A stretch of 59,022 nucleotides of DNA, from NCBI GenBank assembly GCA_020831765.1, contig JAFIFY010000029.1, positions 1 through 59,022 on the forward strand. The letters are read 5' to 3'. Shown piece after piece: positions 18,440 to 27,432 of the stretch. Origin of the DNA: Phycisphaeraceae bacterium (GTDB lineage: Bacteria > Planctomycetota > Phycisphaerae > Phycisphaerales > Phycisphaeraceae). The translations under genes were made by a program, and so were the position numbers. The stretch's first letter is position 1; every line of letters begins with the position of its first letter. The notes under the pieces are model-generated. The model was given only the letters and a program-made list of their open reading frames with translations, did no database searches and had not been told where the DNA came from.

Positions 18440-21400
18440 TCAGCGTTGGCCCTGTCCGCCCCGCGGGGCCACGGTGGTCGGGCCGGGTTCGATCAGTTCC
18501 AGGCGGTCACGGTCCATGTCCCACCGGACTCGACGGGCGGTGAGCATGGTTGGATCGTCCCGGGGTACGACCTGGACATAGCGGGTCGGCTCGCTGCTCA
18601 ATTCGACCTGCCGGGATATCGCGTTGTAGATCATGCGATCGGCCCAGATTTCCCGGCTCGGCCAGGTCAGCCGAACGCGGCTGGCCCCGTCCTGGCCCTC
18701 AGCGCGAACCAGCATCAGCCGGGGCAACTCACGCGCGGGGGGCGCGGCCGACGCGGACTGGCCACTTTCGGAACCGGAATCCGCCTTCTTCTCAAAGTCG
18801 GCATGAACCGTGTGGGCGTAAAGATGCATCACCTCACCATCGCCCGACGGCCGATGGCTCATCACCACATCGCGCCGAACCATCAGGTCGTTGGCTCTGA
18901 AATCGGCGCGCAGCCCGCCGCGCCAGGTCCAGAGCGTGTCACCGCTTCCGGTAATGTTCAGCTCGGTTCCCGGCGCTCGGTCCCGGGCGGTGTCCGCCGC
19001 GGACCTTTCTTCCGCCTGGTCGGGGGTTTCAAGATCCTGGTAGAGCATTGAGCCTCGACCTTCGACGTTCAGCAGTTCGGTGCGCGTGTCCAGTTGAATC
19101 GAGGTGCCGCGCAGGTTGAACCTTCGCAGCAGTTCACCCTCGGGCTTGATCGGCTCCAGTGACCGCTCGACGACCGGTTCAACCCGATCGCCTTCGGCCG
19201 GGCGGAACAGTTCGAAACTGAACCCGGCATCCGGCTGATCCTCCAGCCGGCTATGGGCTTCGATTCGCAGCACCTGTCGGCCGTCGGTCCGCGCAAGGGA
19301 TTGAGGATTGAACCGGACAACGGCTGTCGCATCTTCGGCCGTGGCGGTCGGCGATGCTGAGCCGCCGGGCCTGGTGTCCCCGGGCTCGGCCGCCTGAGCG
19401 CGTGGCGAGAGCTGCACCAGAACGCGGTCGCCCCTCATGGCATGTGTCCGATCGCGCGAACCGGCCTGGTATCTGACCTCTCCATCCAACTCGACACGGC
19501 CGGAGAGATCGTCATATCGCATCGAGCGCTGCCAGGTGGCTTCGTGCAGCATGGGCGAGGACGGTGCCGCCGCAACCGGCTCAGTCGATGCTTCATCGTT
19601 ACCGGCATTCACGGTGGCGCTGTCCCCGGGGGCGTGGGCATCGGGCATCTGAAGCAGCCGGATGCGCCCCGGCCCATCGACCACCACCCGGTCTTCACCT
19701 TCGACCATTCGAATGTGATGACCCTCCAACTCACTGTAAGACTGGCTGATCCGCGCCGGCTGGGCGTTGGCGACTCCGAGAACATCCACGCGGTTGTGTT
19801 CGCCGGACTGGTCTATTCGCAGTTGATCGCCGCGCACTCGTGTCCCTCCCGCTTCAAGATCGAGTTTGACGTTCCGGCGTGCTTCGAGCGTCACCAGCTT
19901 CCATGAAGAGCCTCCGGCCGGATCGGTTTCCGGTCCCGGGTCATCGCGGTTGGTCGGGGCCGATTCAGCGGTGGGGGGCAGGTCAAGTTGTGTCCAGACC
20001 TGATCGAAGGCGGCCATCGGATCGCTGGGCGGGGTTTGATGCGGCTCAATATCGCCGGCGACGGTGGGTTTGGCCGCGCCATCATCCTCCGCTTCTGAAA
20101 GCCGCGCAAGTCCGAATCGAAGCTCTTCGGCTTCCAGCCGGCTGTCAGGCAGAACCGCCACGGCCTGTCCCGAGGCGAGCACCTGGAGTTGGTCGGGTAT
20201 CGCCGCGTCGCCACGTCCAGCGGGGCGGAGGTCAAGCGTTCGGGCTGAAAGCTGAATGCCGGGCTGCGTGGGCGAATCCCGCGTAACGAGCCGCGTATTG
20301 CCCTTTGCGAGAATGGATTGGACCGAAGCCACGCCCGGCCGGCCCTCCCGGATGTCGATGTCGAGCCGGTCGGTGTCGAGACGAAAGTCGATATGCCGGG
20401 CGCGAACATCACCGTCAAAGCGAATGATCCTCGTGTCGCCGGCTTCGTCGGCCTGAGCCCTGGCGTCCGGGTCCGTGGAGATCGATTCGATATGCGCCTG
20501 GTTGCTCCAGTTGATGCGCATGGTTCCGGGCGCGCCGATGGTGTCACTGGTTCCGGCGGTCTGTAACCGGCCCGCGCCCAGCCAGCGGGCCTGGCTGCCA
20601 TCCCGGGCCAGTTCAATTCTCACTTCAGGACTCTCAGGCACACCTTCGATCAGCCCGACCTGGGGATCGAGCAGTCGCAGCGGGTTTTCCGGTTCGCCGT
20701 GGAGGGTGAGTTGTCCGGCTTCCATCGAATAGGACATGCCGCCGCCGAGTACGCGTCTTCGAATCTTCCCATCTTCGAGCAACGATACTTCAACCGGCCA
20801 GAGGTTGGCCACGACATCGCTGGCATTGACCGCCCGGGCCGGCCCCTCATCGAGCGGATCGATCCGCAGATGGCCGTCCCATGTCACCACCAGGTCATTA
20901 TCTTGAGGCTCAAACGCCATCATCCGCCCTTCGGGTGCCAGAATCTTGGCGTACAGCGGCTTGTCCGGCGAGGGTGCCGTGGTCACGGTGCCAGGGGAGA
21001 CGCCATTGCCTTCCTGTGATTCAACTTTCCGGGGGTCGGGACGGTGTGCATCCGGGGCCGATCCGCCCACGAGGTCCGAGAAGAATAGCTCAAGCTCCCG
21101 GGCGTTTTCAGCCAGGACCGTCGGCCCGGAGATGCGGATATTGTCGTGGAACCGGGCTCGGTACCATTGGGCGGGCGTCGAGGCATCGGGCTGGGCCTCG
21201 GCCCCGGCCCCGGCTTGGGTTGGTGGGGTTGTCCGCCTGGGCGGTGCCGACGCGACGGGTTCGTCGCCGGGTTCACTTTCGCGTTCGGCGTCCGATGCAT
21301 GTTGATCGCGGATTCGAAGCTCCCGACCCTTCTGGACGACGAGCCGTTCGATCCGATTTCTCAGCGTGTTGACGGTCAGGTTCAATCCCTTGCCGACAAA

Positions 21401-21988
21401 CAATGTCTGGTCGGTGATGATTCGGATTTCGTCGACGGAGACGATCTGGCCGAGTTCGAAGTCCAGATCGGCGCTCTGAAGTTCGACCTGAACCGTGGGA
21501 TTGAGCCGGGCATGCCGTCCATCGGCATCAGGCGTGATTTGATACCAGGTCAGCGTTACGGGTTGGTCGGGTTCGCCGCTGAGTTGGGCGCGGGTCGGCT
21601 GGTTTTCAGGCGCATCAATTCGGCCGCTCGCGGCGTGAATGGCCAGGATATCGAGATTGCCTCGCCTGAAGAGGATCAGGGGGTCGTCGAAGCTGAACTG
21701 GCCATTGGGCAGCGGGTTCATCCGCTTGCCGCGCACCTCGACGACCCGCAGGTCATCGATCTTGCGGATCAGCAGCGGGTCATGGACCCAGCCCGGTCGG
21801 GTGGATATGCCCGCCATATGGCGCATCTCGCCGGTTTCGATCGGCGCGGGAAACCTTTGGCGTAGTTCATCCGGGTCGAGGGCCGACGATTGATCGTCTG
21901 AACTCCCGCCGCCCCAGAGCAACATCGCGGCAACGAAACCCGCTGTCAGAACCATCAAAGCCGCCGTAAGCATGTATTTTGATCGCAT
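18440..21988 (-). CDS. Giant LptC/OstA-like beta-jellyroll protein
   Basis: 1182-aa protein anchored by one N-terminal membrane helix (about 6-26), with the rest predicted periplasmic. Its N-terminal third (RIITDQTLFVGKGLNLTV, RIERLVVQKG) resembles the LptC fold. Later segments such as VKLDLEAGGTRVRGDQLRID and the C-terminal ADRMIYNAISRQVELSS resemble repeated OstA/LptA strands, with acidic, Pro-rich linkers between them. LptC and LptA normally have about 190 aa each and form the bridge that carries lipopolysaccharide across the periplasm. This protein could build a longer bridge alone. No Lpt ABC genes are adjacent; an lptE-like gene lies at 37840. The fold call rests on pattern recognition, not on a profile search. 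Confidence 0.65.
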   Translation of the reverse strand: MRSKYMLTAALMVLTAGFVAAMLLWGGGSSDDQSSALDPDELRQRFPAPIETGEMRHMAGISTRPGWVHDPLLIRKIDDLRVVEVRGKRMNPLPNGQFSFDDPLILFRRGNLDILAIHAASGRIDAPENQPTRAQLSGEPDQPVTLTWYQITPDADGRHARLNPTVQVELQSADLDFELGQIVSVDEIRIITDQTLFVGKGLNLTVNTLRNRIERLVVQKGRELRIRDQHASDAERESEPGDEPVASAPPRRTTPPTQAGAGAEAQPDASTPAQWYRARFHDNIRISGPTVLAENARELELFFSDLVGGSAPDAHRPDPRKVESQEGNGVSPGTVTTAPSPDKPLYAKILAPEGRMMAFEPQDNDLVVTWDGHLRIDPLDEGPARAVNASDVVANLWPVEVSLLEDGKIRRRVLGGGMSYSMEAGQLTLHGEPENPLRLLDPQVGLIEGVPESPEVRIELARDGSQARWLGAGRLQTAGTSDTIGAPGTMRINWSNQAHIESISTDPDARAQADEAGDTRIIRFDGDVRARHIDFRLDTDRLDIDIREGRPGVASVQSILAKGNTRLVTRDSPTQPGIQLSARTLDLRPAGRGDAAIPDQLQVLASGQAVAVLPDSRLEAEELRFGLARLSEAEDDGAAKPTVAGDIEPHQTPPSDPMAAFDQVWTQLDLPPTAESAPTNRDDPGPETDPAGGSSWKLVTLEARRNVKLDLEAGGTRVRGDQLRIDQSGEHNRVDVLGVANAQPARISQSYSELEGHHIRMVEGEDRVVVDGPGRIRLLQMPDAHAPGDSATVNAGNDEASTEPVAAAPSSPMLHEATWQRSMRYDDLSGRVELDGEVRYQAGSRDRTHAMRGDRVLVQLSPRAQAAEPGDTRPGGSASPTATAEDATAVVRFNPQSLARTDGRQVLRIEAHSRLEDQPDAGFSFELFRPAEGDRVEPVVERSLEPIKPEGELLRRFNLRGTSIQLDTRTELLNVEGRGSMLYQDLETPDQAEERSAADTARDRAPGTELNITGSGDTLWTWRGGLRADFRANDLMVRRDVVMSHRPSGDGEVMHLYAHTVHADFEKKADSGSESGQSASAAPPARELPRLMLVRAEGQDGASRVRLTWPSREIWADRMIYNAISRQVELSSEPTRYVQVVPRDDPTMLTARRVRWDMDRDRLELIEPGPTTVAPRGGQGQR

Positions 21989-22123: not shown

Positions 22124-23008
22124 ATGTGTCAGACAACCGGCCCGGTGACCGTCGGGCTTCTGCAGCATCGAACCTGCCCAACGGCCGAGGCCGCATGGGA
22201 GCGGGTCGGCGTCATGGCCCAAGAGGCGCGGCAGCGCGGTGCGCGGCTTGTCGTGACGCCCGAACTGTTCACCACGCCGTATTTTCCACGCACCGAAGAC
22301 CCCGGTCATTTCGACCATGCCGAGCCGATTCCCGGCCCCACCACCGAGGCCATGGGACGACTGGCCAGGAAACTTGAAATCCACCTGAGCGCTTCGATCT
22401 TCGAGCGCCGCGCTTCGGGCGTCTATCACAATTCCACAGCGCTCCTCGGGCCGGATGGAAAGATTCTGGCGGTCTACCGCAAGATGCACATTCCCGATGA
22501 CCCGGCGTTTTATGAAAAGTTCTACTTTACACCCGGCGATGCCGGTTCCGAATGCTGGCGTGTGGCGCCGATCGGCGGATTGAAGATCGGCCTGTTGATC
22601 TGCTGGGACCAGTGGTTTCCTGAAGCGGCGCGCCTCAACGCGCTGCGCGGCGCGGAACTGCTGCTCTATCCCACGGCGATCGCCTGGGATCGCGGCGAGC
22701 CGGAAGCCGAGCAGCTTCGCCAGCGCGATGCGTGGCGGGTGGTTCAGCGGGCGCACGCGATCGCCAACGGTGTTTATGTCGCGGCGGTGAACAGGGTGGG
22801 CGATGAGGGTGGTCTGACCTTCTGGGGCGGGAGCTTCATCGCCGGGCCGGGCGGCGAGGTGCTGGCCGAGGCCGCTTCCGATCGTGAAGAGGTGCTCGTG
22901 GCCCACTGCGATCCGGCGCGGATCGAGGAAGTCCGCCGCATGTGGCCGTTCTTCCGCGATCGGCGACTGGACGCTTATGGCGGGCTGATGCATCGGTGGT
23001 CCACATGA
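22124..23008 (+). CDS. aguB: N-carbamoylputrescine amidase
   Basis: Nitrilase-superfamily hydrolase (294 aa) that converts N-carbamoylputrescine to putrescine, CO2 and ammonia. The catalytic triad is visible: Glu in VVTPELF, Lys in YRKMHIPDD and Cys in LLICWDQWFPE. The block FYEKFYFTPGD is characteristic of AguB. GGAGCAGGA precedes the ATG. Its stop overlaps the next gene as ATGA, and that gene encodes agmatine deiminase, the preceding step of the pathway. Confidence 0.94.
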   Translation: MCQTTGPVTVGLLQHRTCPTAEAAWERVGVMAQEARQRGARLVVTPELFTTPYFPRTEDPGHFDHAEPIPGPTTEAMGRLARKLEIHLSASIFERRASGVYHNSTALLGPDGKILAVYRKMHIPDDPAFYEKFYFTPGDAGSECWRVAPIGGLKIGLLICWDQWFPEAARLNALRGAELLLYPTAIAWDRGEPEAEQLRQRDAWRVVQRAHAIANGVYVAAVNRVGDEGGLTFWGGSFIAGPGGEVLAEAASDREEVLVAHCDPARIEEVRRMWPFFRDRRLDAYGGLMHRWST

Positions 23009-24147
23009 ACGCGAAGCGCAGAACGGTGAAGAAGCTGGTCTCGCCGGTTCCGCTGCCGGGAATGGACGCGGCCGATCTGGGCTACCGAATGCCCGCGGAA
23101 TGGGAGCCGCAGGCGGCGGTGTGGGTGACCCTGCCGCACAACGAGGCGACGTGGCCGGGCTGCCTCGACCAGGCCAGGGTGCAGTTCGAGCGTTTCATTG
23201 CCCGGCTAAGCGCCCATGTCGTGGTCAGATCGACCCAGCGATTGGGCATTCCCACCAACGATTCATGGATTCGTGATTACGGGGCCATCTTCGTGGTCCG
23301 TGATCAAGGGCGGCCGCCATCGCAGGAGGACCCGGCGCTGTGCGGGGGACGGTACCCGGTGGCGGCGCACAGCTACACCTACAACGCATGGGGAGGGAAG
23401 TATCCGCCCTGGCAGGATGATGATGCCGTGCCGGCCCGCATGGCCCTGGCGCTGAAGGTTCCGTTGTGGCGGCATGATTTTGTCCTCGAAGGCGGTTCGA
23501 TCGATGTCAACGGCAAAGGTCTTCTGCTGACCACCGCCCAGTGCCTGCTCAATCGCAACCGCAATCCTCATTGCGATCGCAAGGCTATTGAAAGGAAGCT
23601 CGCTCGAACGCTCAACGTGTCGCGGGTCATCTGGCTTGCCGGCGGTGTGCGCGGCGACGACACCGATGGTCATATCGATGATGTGGCCCGTTTCATCAGC
23701 CCGGATACCATCGCGGCCGTCAGGGTGGGGCGGAACCATCCGGATTTCGACATGCTCGAAGCCAACTGGCGGCGTTTGCTGGAAGCTCGCGACCTGACAG
23801 GCCGTCGCCTGAACCTCGTCGAACTGCCGGCCCCGGAACCGGTGCGATACCAATACCCGACTCACGCCGATTACGATGTCGGCCGCCAAGGCCTGCCGGC
23901 CAGCTACGCCAACTTTCTGATCAGCAACGGTGCTGTTTTTGTGCCCGTCTTCGGCCAGAAGAACGATGATCTGGCCGTTCGGCAATTGGAAGGGGCCATG
24001 CCTGGTATTCAGGTCGTGCCCATCCGAAGCGAATACCTGATCGTGGGGATGGGCGCGATTCATTGCATGACCATGCAGGAACCGGAAGCGCCGGGGGCCA
24101 AACTGGCCACTCGGGGTCTGGAGAATGTTGAAGCCCTCTCATCCTGA
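23005..24147 (+). CDS. aguA: Agmatine deiminase
   Basis: Hydrolyses agmatine to N-carbamoylputrescine and ammonia (380 aa). Guanidine-modifying-enzyme residues are present: Asp in SWIRDYG, Glu in LEGGSID, His in TDGHIDDVARF and the nucleophile Cys in MGAIHCMTMQEP. The ATG at 23005 overlaps the aguB stop (ATGA), which fixes the start; a longer reading frame into aguB is not needed. With aguB it forms a two-gene putrescine route. No arginine decarboxylase is in the window, so agmatine must be made elsewhere or imported. Confidence 0.94.
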   Translation: MNAKRRTVKKLVSPVPLPGMDAADLGYRMPAEWEPQAAVWVTLPHNEATWPGCLDQARVQFERFIARLSAHVVVRSTQRLGIPTNDSWIRDYGAIFVVRDQGRPPSQEDPALCGGRYPVAAHSYTYNAWGGKYPPWQDDDAVPARMALALKVPLWRHDFVLEGGSIDVNGKGLLLTTAQCLLNRNRNPHCDRKAIERKLARTLNVSRVIWLAGGVRGDDTDGHIDDVARFISPDTIAAVRVGRNHPDFDMLEANWRRLLEARDLTGRRLNLVELPAPEPVRYQYPTHADYDVGRQGLPASYANFLISNGAVFVPVFGQKNDDLAVRQLEGAMPGIQVVPIRSEYLIVGMGAIHCMTMQEPEAPGAKLATRGLENVEALSS

Positions 24148-24308
24148 AAGCCGACCTTATCAGTACCCGCATGGCTGCTTGCCGGGATGATGTTCCCGGG
24201 GCTTTGCCTTGGCCAACCGGTTTGGCGGCCGTCAAGGCCGGCGGACGTCGGCCCGGGCACGCACGGTCGGAAGTCTCGCCCGACACTACGGTTAAGGAAT
24301 CCAATTTC

Positions 24309-25997
24309 ATGTCCAAAGTTGCCGTGGTCGTGCTGGCTGACCTTGAAGAGGGGGGTCTTGGTCTACCCTCGGCGATTGACCATTCGCTGGATGGCCGGCC
24401 GGTGTTGGCCTGGACGCTCGATCGTGCCCGTCAGGTCCGCTCGGCCTCGCAATGTGCGATCGTGTATCCATCGACCCAGGATGAGGCCAGGATTATCGGA
24501 CTTGCCGGTGAGGCGGGCGCTAAGTGCCCGCTGTTTCCCTTCGAGAGGGTGGAGGATTCCTACAAGCCATCACGCCTGATGACGCGGCGATGGTCCATGA
24601 GACATTGGCGAGGCGGTCTGGGCGGCGCGTGCATCTTCGATGAACTGCTGCCGGCCAAGCCGCTTTTGGATGCGGCTGACCATCTCAAGGTTGATGCCCT
24701 GCTGGTGGTCCGCGGCGACTGGTGTCTCATGGACCCGGCCATCAGCGACGCGGTCATCGAACGGTATCGAACGGCCCCGGACCACTTCGGCATGGTCTTT
24801 ACCCAGGCACCGCCCGGGCTCTGCGGCATGCTCATCCGCAGGGATGTGATTGAGAACCTGGTCAAGGAGCCGTCCGGCACGGTCGGCTCGATGTTGACCT
24901 TTCGTCCGGCCAGTGGCCGGGGCGACCCCATCGGGCTGGATGTCTGCGTGCATATTGATGCCCAGGTCCGATCCAACACCGAGCGCTGGATTTACGATGC
25001 GGCCCGCGGTCGCGAACAGATCGAGCGGCTGATCGCCGCGCGACCCGAGGACTGGTCGAAGCTCAGCACTCTTGAACTTGCGCGTGTCCATCGCGGCGTT
25101 GCCTTGAATCACCCGCCCCGCGCGCCAAGCCATGTCACGTTTGAACTGACCACACGTCGGCGGGTACGGGGCATTGCCGCCGGCTTGTACGATTCAACGC
25201 CGTCTGAAGCCGAACAACTTCTGGAAGCCGCCCCCATCGAGGCTTCGCCGAGGGTGATCGAGCGCATCCTCACGGAGCTTGCCCGCATTCCCGATGCGGT
25301 GCTGGTTCTGGGCGGTCGCGGTGATCCTCTCCTCCATTCCGATGTCGGTGGTGTCATTGAACGCGCCAGGCGCCTGGGACTGACTCGGATCGGCATCGAG
25401 ACCGACCTGCTGGATATTGAGCCGGGCCGTCTCGAGCAATTGATCGAGCTTGCCCCCGATGTGGTTCTGGTACGTCTGAACGCCGACAGGGCAGGGACAT
25501 ATACGCAGATGGCCGGCGTGGACCGGTTTGCGGAAGCCATGGGTGGTCTGGAAAAGCTGGTCAAGCTCCGCAACCAGGCCTGGAATGCCGGCCGACTGGA
25601 CCGCGGGGTGCCCTGGATCGTGCCCCGTTGCATCCGTGTCCGCGACACGATGGCTGATATCGAGCACTTCTTCGACCGTTGGACCCACTACCTGGGTCAC
25701 GCCGTCATCGATCCGGCACCGGTTCGCTTTGAAGACGGCGATGTCCACGGATGGGATGAGATCGAGCGGGGCGGAGTGATTCACGTCAGCCCGCCGGAAT
25801 CCGTTCGCCTCGCCTCGGCGACCGATCGGCTCACAGTCCTGGCCGACGGCTCACTCCCGCTCTGGTCGCCCACCGGCCCTTGTCGCCCGGCGATTTCGCT
25901 GCTGAAAAGCTCGTTTTCCGCCGCATGGCCGGACCTGGTTTCCGCGCGTCATCAGGCGTGCCGGGCCGCAGCCGAGCCGATTTGTCGGGTTGCCTGA
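24309..25997 (+). CDS. NTP-transferase-like protein with a degenerate radical SAM/SPASM region
   Basis: 562-aa protein. Residues 1-230 resemble a nucleotidyltransferase-type fold (SKVAVVVLADLEEGG, SLDGRPVLAWTLDRA, then LLVVRGDWCLMDP). Residues 270-520 follow the plan of radical SAM/SPASM proteins of the spirochaete-type (Spiro-SPASM) architecture, but the iron-sulfur ligands are missing: VTFELTTRRRVRG (276-288) stands where a CxxxCxxC site is expected, and LTVLADGSLPLWS where SPASM has its DGxVxPC. The GGEPLLH-like turn is GGRGDPLLHSD (335-345). It is therefore probably inactive as a radical SAM enzyme. The start at 24309 follows aagga; an upstream ATG at 24171 lacks support. Role unknown. 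Confidence 0.7.
   Translation: MSKVAVVVLADLEEGGLGLPSAIDHSLDGRPVLAWTLDRARQVRSASQCAIVYPSTQDEARIIGLAGEAGAKCPLFPFERVEDSYKPSRLMTRRWSMRHWRGGLGGACIFDELLPAKPLLDAADHLKVDALLVVRGDWCLMDPAISDAVIERYRTAPDHFGMVFTQAPPGLCGMLIRRDVIENLVKEPSGTVGSMLTFRPASGRGDPIGLDVCVHIDAQVRSNTERWIYDAARGREQIERLIAARPEDWSKLSTLELARVHRGVALNHPPRAPSHVTFELTTRRRVRGIAAGLYDSTPSEAEQLLEAAPIEASPRVIERILTELARIPDAVLVLGGRGDPLLHSDVGGVIERARRLGLTRIGIETDLLDIEPGRLEQLIELAPDVVLVRLNADRAGTYTQMAGVDRFAEAMGGLEKLVKLRNQAWNAGRLDRGVPWIVPRCIRVRDTMADIEHFFDRWTHYLGHAVIDPAPVRFEDGDVHGWDEIERGGVIHVSPPESVRLASATDRLTVLADGSLPLWSPTGPCRPAISLLKSSFSAAWPDLVSARHQACRAAAEPICRVA

Positions 25998-26211: not shown

Positions 26212-27432
<1,221 letters not shown>

Follow-up and report, generated by a model that had tools for sequence, protein, structure and literature searches.

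The gene considered here lies on the forward strand of the window, i.e., the whole analyzed stretch of 59,022 nucleotides from a Phycisphaeraceae bacterium. Its frame is open from the ATG at 24309 to the stop codon at 25995-25997 and encodes 562 amino acids, within a longer mechanically listed open reading frame (ORF) beginning at 24171. Its neighbours on the two sides are an agmatine-deiminase-like gene (PF04371) and metK; the surroundings comprise a carbon-nitrogen hydrolase and the agmatine-deiminase-like (PAD_porph) gene upstream (22124-24147), metK downstream (26212-27432), and, at 18440-21988, a 1182-aa ORF with no Pfam match at E 0.001. The following features, all on the plus strand, are distinguished:

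24309-25997, plus strand: whole gene, 562 aa plus stop (ORF, profile searches, predicted structure, kept columns)
24309-25103, plus strand: degenerate cytidylyltransferase-like domain of SpsF/KdsB/NeuA fold, residues 1-265, boundary approximate (Z 22.6 to 6oew)
24333-24374, plus strand: residues 9-22, LADLEEGGLGLPSA, aligned by HMMER to 6oew at the place of the ARxGSxRLPxK of active members
24585-24644, plus strand: residues 93-112, the family-conserved R-x-W...WRGGxGG...DE segment (column counts)
25104-25718, plus strand: pseudo-radical SAM barrel, residues 266-470, boundary approximate (Z 19.6 to ChlB, 19.4 to MoaA and anSME; 17/17 conserved columns kept)
25143-25172, plus strand: ELTTRRRVRG, residues 279-288, site of the missing CxxxCxxC (alignment)
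25311-25337, plus strand: GGRGDPLLH, residues 335-343, retained GGE-type turn (column counts)
25791-25994, plus strand: twitch-like tail, residues 495-562, cluster ligands lost (L, W, C, and A at the ligand columns)

The best family match of the protein among the NCBIfam profiles is spiro-SPASM (TIGR04321; E 2.9e-12, 46 bits, cut-off 250 bits), and, judged by sequence, it is a distant relative of this family lying under its cut-off. The Pfam models Radical_SAM (6.3e-6, 26.9 bits, gathering threshold 29.5, model positions 26-139 only) and NTP_transf_3 (0.0018, 19 bits, gathering threshold 27) score under gathering, and therefore both assignments are sub-threshold by sequence alone. A PDB sequence search with the window protein alone gave no match. 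When 294 planctomycete genomes were searched with TIGR04321, 33 matched at 1e-20 and none exceeded the cut-off. The name spiro-SPASM presumably refers to spirochaetes; in two plasmid records from a spirochaete search, no match was found. An outgroup homologue, L041, aligns to model positions 75-506 of 510, and therefore the NTP-transferase part is common to TIGR04321. The model was also probed with a planctomycete radical SAM protein, L046, in which cysteines were replaced by serine. Each radical SAM Cys cost 2.9-3.0 bits (8.7 for all three), as compared to 6.2 bits each (18.6 for all three) in TIGR04317, and the loss of each of the four tail Cys cost 7.4-7.6 bits. This probe, an indirect one, gives a hint that the four tail Cys are general among TIGR04321 members and that conservation of the radical SAM Cys is partial.

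The structure of the window protein was predicted by AlphaFold with 81 sequences (pLDDT 91.0, pTM 0.92) and compared to the PDB with VIA-align. The segment starting at residue 1 has the nucleotidyltransferase fold of NeuA, KdsB, and SpsF, matching the Leptospira cytidylyltransferase 6oew over 224 of 238 residues; CMP-Kdo synthetases score far lower (1h7e, Z 16.0, the others below). The rest of the protein (about residue 266 to residue 562) has the partial TIM barrel of radical SAM enzymes and aligns with members of that group that end in a SPASM or twitch domain. Besides the scores listed above, Z reaches 19.3 for SuiB, 18.9 for BlsE, and 17.5 for PqqE, and the alignments to ChlB, MoaA, and anSME span 255-262 residues, tail included. 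A viral structure library returned radical SAM and glycosyltransferase-type matches and nothing beyond the folds already shared. All three folds of the architecture that a preliminary description had read from the letters (an NTP-transferase-like domain, a radical SAM plan, and a tail) are thus supported by prediction and PDB comparison. The motifs named in it stand where it had placed them (ELTTRRRVRG, GGRGDPLLH, and ADGSLPLWS at 512-520), and the radical SAM barrel, whose absence would have spoken against a retained fold, is predicted.

Relatives were drawn from 35 of 41 genomes of the family and order, from other classes of the phylum, and from 80 loci on named contigs, these being the best 80 of 103 relatives that match one peptide pattern. 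The 127 sequences were reduced to 114 by removing 13 duplicates and then to 109 rows, window included, by leaving out L071, L109, and L137 (same genomes), L150 (truncated), and L067, a true radical SAM enzyme of 364 aa and the sole aligned row with a radical SAM motif. The quick tree, in which several outgroup branches are long, was built from 108 sequences, with L135 also left out.

The radical SAM motif segment of the window protein holds no Cys, and a CxxxCxxC-like motif is absent from this segment in all 109 planctomycete rows; a loose CxxxCxxC pattern matches two rows only, L023 and L124, in both cases within the tail. The loss therefore dates back to the origin of the planctomycete family as sampled, and the suspicion that it might be a single-strain anomaly can be dismissed. 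The GGE-type turn, which in radical SAM enzymes takes part in SAM binding, is retained: G336 is found in 107/109 rows, G338 in 106/109, and Asp or Glu at position 339 in 107/109. The most reduced members, L032-L035, have the barrel segment largely deleted and the tail shortened, and yet they are fused to a Maf glycosyltransferase and followed by NeuA.

The second catalytic signature is lost as well. A profile of outgroup homologues aligned by HMMER places QARMGSTRLPGK of 6oew opposite a family stretch devoid of the Arg and Lys residues of the ARxGSxRLPxK signature, which serve in CTP binding. None of the 109 rows carries a signature of this type: the first Arg is Asp in 85 (D11 of the window protein) and Arg in 2, the second is Gly in 86 (G18), and the Lys column (22) holds Lys in 1. 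As a control, NeuA-like neighbours match the loose signature at 78/85 loci, some genomes being counted twice. The NTP-transferase domain, which the preliminary description had taken for the intact part of the protein, is thus degenerate family-wide. The domain could still be an enzyme, with a re-made active site on the cytidylyltransferase fold (R93, W100-R101, D111-E112, D137, R226, D230) for the activation or modification of a rare sugar; the remainder of the protein would then be scaffold. Such a site would be in line with the near-fixed positions R93 (109/109), R101 and R226 (107/109 each), E112 (106/109), and D111 and D230 (104/109 each), with the Asp of a GDxPL-type loop kept in 85/109 rows, and with an operon that makes activated sugar. 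G170 of the same domain is present in 109/109 rows. However, since the signature is absent in every row, with its Arg mostly turned into Asp, and many loci already possess a NeuA with the motif, we consider an enzyme of this kind unlikely.

To judge by the match of the outgroup-homologue profile to the BtrN tail (E 2.5e-15), in which the tail Cys are aligned, the tail is closer to a twitch domain with one cluster than to a SPASM domain with seven Cys. According to PMC6231123, a twitch domain is a shortened SPASM domain holding a single cluster, and the four Cys of BtrN fully ligate one [4Fe-4S] cluster. The window protein retains at most one of these four ligands, the Cys (C559) of its terminal 'ICRVA', which falls in the column of the third ligand, perhaps as a remnant, perhaps by an accident of the alignment. 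The statement that every expected cluster Cys is replaced accordingly stands for the first cluster, of which none is left, and for at least three of the four ligands of the second, with C559 as a possible exception. The alignment speaks against a frameshift or sequencing error as the source of the tail loss, and this reading was rejected: the frame remains in register as far as W540, and L003 and L024 have lost the same four ligands.

Among 107 relatives, four tail Cys are found in 51, three in 5, one in 5, and none in 46, and at least four losses are required on the tree. As the tail Cys are intact in 51/107 and three remain in another 5, the tail loss is secondary and lineage-specific. The sister clade of the window protein, placed with support of only 87 (not starred), mostly retains all four. 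The radical SAM loss and the tail loss are thus separate events. The preliminary description had treated them as a single argument, and had asked whether planctomycete orthologues share them; the single argument falls, as they share the radical SAM loss in all rows but the tail loss only in part.

The gene context of the relatives links the family to flagellin. Frames of about 1,100-1,500 aa carry an additional N-terminal half that both profile and fold matches identify as a Maf flagellin glycosyltransferase: L037 matches PF01973 with E 1.2e-31 and Maf_flag10_N with 2e-5, L032 matches PF01973 with 1.7e-36, and L128 matches FlagModPseD with 8.5e-19, under its cut-off; the solved Maf 5mu5 is the top fold match of the Maf half (E 2.3e-18). 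With a Maf profile built from the N-terminal halves of the fusions, 48 of the 107 relatives have a fused Maf, 53 have it as a separate neighbour, and 6 show none in their flanks, which are short or cut by a contig end. At the named loci (the best 80 of 103 relatives), Maf is found at 77/80, NeuA at 65/80, and NeuB at 44/80, and the three loci devoid of Maf (L110, L139, and L149) all begin at a contig edge. In L124, from the cultured planctomycete strain ZRK32 (complete genome, CP066225.1), the gene has a four-Cys tail and lies next to Maf and NeuA. The spacing between Maf and the gene, with starts estimated from the profile, has a median of -4 bases over 33 pairs, a set that includes the second Maf on the other side of the gene in L043, and is -7 for most outgroup pairs. 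In L043, Maf matches flank the pseudo-radical SAM gene on both sides. In L120 (5872-9689), the Maf and pseudo-radical SAM parts occupy two overlapping frames, as if a fusion had been frameshifted; its close relatives L107, L111, and L121 are open fusions.

The recurrent fusion and the near-overlap of separate genes suggest that the window-family protein works with Maf as one body. In the predicted structure of a natural 1192-aa fusion, the two halves form a single placed unit despite a linker of low confidence (646-661); the pTM of 0.86, which is not an interface score, would exceed what is expected for two freely hinged halves. Maf and the window-family protein are both present in the same 35/41 genomes and both missing from the same 6/41. 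This agreement should not be overrated: as the two genes are neighbours in most cases, their joint absence is not independent evidence, and four of the six genomes are 51-83% complete. Flagellin matches are present in 36/41 genomes: G002 and G018 have flagellin and neither protein, and G031 has both proteins and no flagellin match.

The state of the tail follows the Maf arrangement by count. Of the 48 fused relatives, 42 have no tail Cys, 5 have one, and 1 (L057) has four, and of the 53 Maf-adjacent ones, 46 have four, 5 have three, and 2 have none. Fusion was considered as a cause of the tail loss and set aside, as the association, strong by count, is largely that of one clade (the fused no-Cys clade, support 98, starred, with the window protein outside it); an independent-pairs test, with 3 pairs only, was not significant. 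L057 appears to be a separate Maf fusion of a distant lineage (Maf match 1.2e-6, locus cut).

Since the expected catalytic residues of both enzymes are absent and the relatives mostly stand beside or joined to Maf, the window protein is probably a helper part of a machine that glycosylates flagellin with a sialic-acid-like sugar rather than an enzyme. As both signatures are gone, the role we predict, and favour over its rivals, is that of a non-catalytic subunit of a Maf-dependent flagellin glycosylation machine in the cytoplasm. The computed basis of this reading consists of three retained folds, the family-wide loss of both signatures, fusion or adjacency to Maf, usually with NeuA/NeuB, and joint presence or absence with Maf. 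The fold retained with its clusters lost, as the preliminary description had proposed, agrees with the predicted structure, the PDB comparison, and the kept columns; we infer from it binding rather than catalysis, and the gene context would tie such a protein to Maf-dependent flagellin glycosylation.

A rival possibility is that the protein is an adaptor for flagellin itself, the pseudo-barrel and tail holding flagellin, as radical SAM/SPASM enzymes hold their peptides, and presenting it to Maf. The nearest solved barrels include the peptide-modifying ChlB, anSME, and SuiB, and none of the 17 conserved barrel columns has changed in the window protein. However, MoaA, BlsE, and BtrN, whose substrates are small molecules, reach equal or almost equal scores, L032-L035 lack much of the barrel segment, and Maf1 of Aeromonas interacts with flagellin directly (PMC4065374). 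The adaptor reading is accordingly held to be quite unlikely. In Aeromonas, according to the same source, glycosylation of flagellin precedes chaperone binding and export (PMC4065374).

The window copy stands apart from its relatives, of which 101/107 have the gene fused or adjacent to Maf, as it is neither. Its own genome is 98.4% complete. Profile searches of the contigs gave a single Maf match, on C71, NeuB matches on C2 and C118, flagellin matches on C3, C170, and C60 with a fragment on C176, and four CTP_transf_3 matches, and none of these on the contig of the window; the gene set is thus dispersed in this genome. Near the Maf match (C71, i.e., L154, 1612-3819), ORFs judged by eye to be ClpC-type ATPase-like and GGDEF-type-like are located, and C71 carries no spiro-SPASM and no CTP_transf_3 match. 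On C2 (L164:2491-3696), an ORF with a radical SAM-like CDLTCPHC motif overlaps, on the opposite strand, the N-terminal extension of the NeuB frame. One could assume a lineage in which the operon fell apart, leaving the window protein as a drifting relic, given Maf on another contig, the lost tail ligands, and the long terminal branch (1.34). However, the frame is intact, Maf, NeuB, and flagellins are still in the genome, the codon-position G+C is like that of neighbouring genes, and, of the 41 columns with a conservation of 85% or more among the other 108 rows, the protein keeps 39 (19/20, 17/17 in the barrel, and 3/4 by domain; rank 49/109 from the lowest). With so many conserved columns kept, the copy looks maintained rather than decaying, though its branch is long, and a relic seems very improbable.

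For the preferred reading, a non-catalytic partner of Maf, the following mechanism may be proposed. Maf would transfer a nonulosonic (sialic-acid-like) sugar to flagellin in the cytoplasm, and the window-family protein would bind Maf. The degenerate cytidylyltransferase pocket, which holds the most conserved columns, may bind the product of the NeuA/NeuB pathway, a CMP-sugar or a sugar, the conserved side of the pocket being the first candidate for binding nonulosonate or CMP-nonulosonate. The bound sugar might then be handed to Maf, or Maf might be gated by it. Maf or flagellin would dock on the pseudo-barrel and tail. Where relatives have the one-cluster tail, as many do, it may be a structural or redox (or redox-tuning) element, dispensable as in the window protein. 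A wider picture, tentative and given somewhat less than an even chance, is that a protein made of two retired enzymes is a standing part of planctomycete flagellin sialylation, working in cis (in the fusions) or in trans with Maf as a sensor or loader of the donor sugar. Its ancestor would have been a two-domain sugar-modifying radical enzyme, whose cluster-bearing tail would still serve in half of the family as sampled and would have been dropped by the other lineages.

As a rule, a protein with a radical SAM or cytidylyltransferase fold is annotated as an enzyme. Here one family appears to have lost both chemistries, and yet it shows strong conservation and a tie to Maf. A concrete, testable function in flagellin glycosylation is thereby offered for a distant relative of spiro-SPASM, and the tails, from four Cys to none, form a natural series for the role of an auxiliary iron-sulfur cluster once the catalytic cluster is gone. 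The search of the open-licence literature returned no paper on spiro-SPASM, none on planctomycete flagellin glycosylation with nonulosonic sugars, nothing relevant on SPASM together with flagellin glycosylation, and, judged from titles, nothing on point for radical SAM pseudoenzymes.

Among known systems, spiro-SPASM proteins (TIGR04321) share with the window protein the N-terminal NTP-transferase-like part, the radical SAM-like part, and the SPASM-like tail, but the window protein does not reach the curated whole-protein cut-off. Pseudo-radical SAM proteins as a kind are not new to NCBI, which has named another family of them, the pseudo-SAM/SPASM proteins TIGR04347. This family, to judge by its name, is haloarchaeal; L041 matches it weakly (29.3 bits), whereas the window protein does not match it at E up to 10. 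BtrN and other twitch radical SAM enzymes have the same barrel and one-cluster tail, and many relatives keep the BtrN-type ligand columns. In contrast to these enzymes, the window family has no radical SAM cluster motif and has an extra N-terminal domain, and the window protein also lacks the tail ligands. That domain has the fold of SpsF/KdsB/NeuA-type cytidylyltransferases such as 6oew and 1h7e but has lost their catalytic signature. The Maf/PseD flagellin nonulosonate transferases (5mu5, NF050051) are partners of the window family and not homologous to the window protein. For the Aeromonas caviae island, PMC4065374 describes five sugar genes together with a single maf; Maf of other organisms accordingly can do without a partner of this kind, which weighs against the preferred reading.
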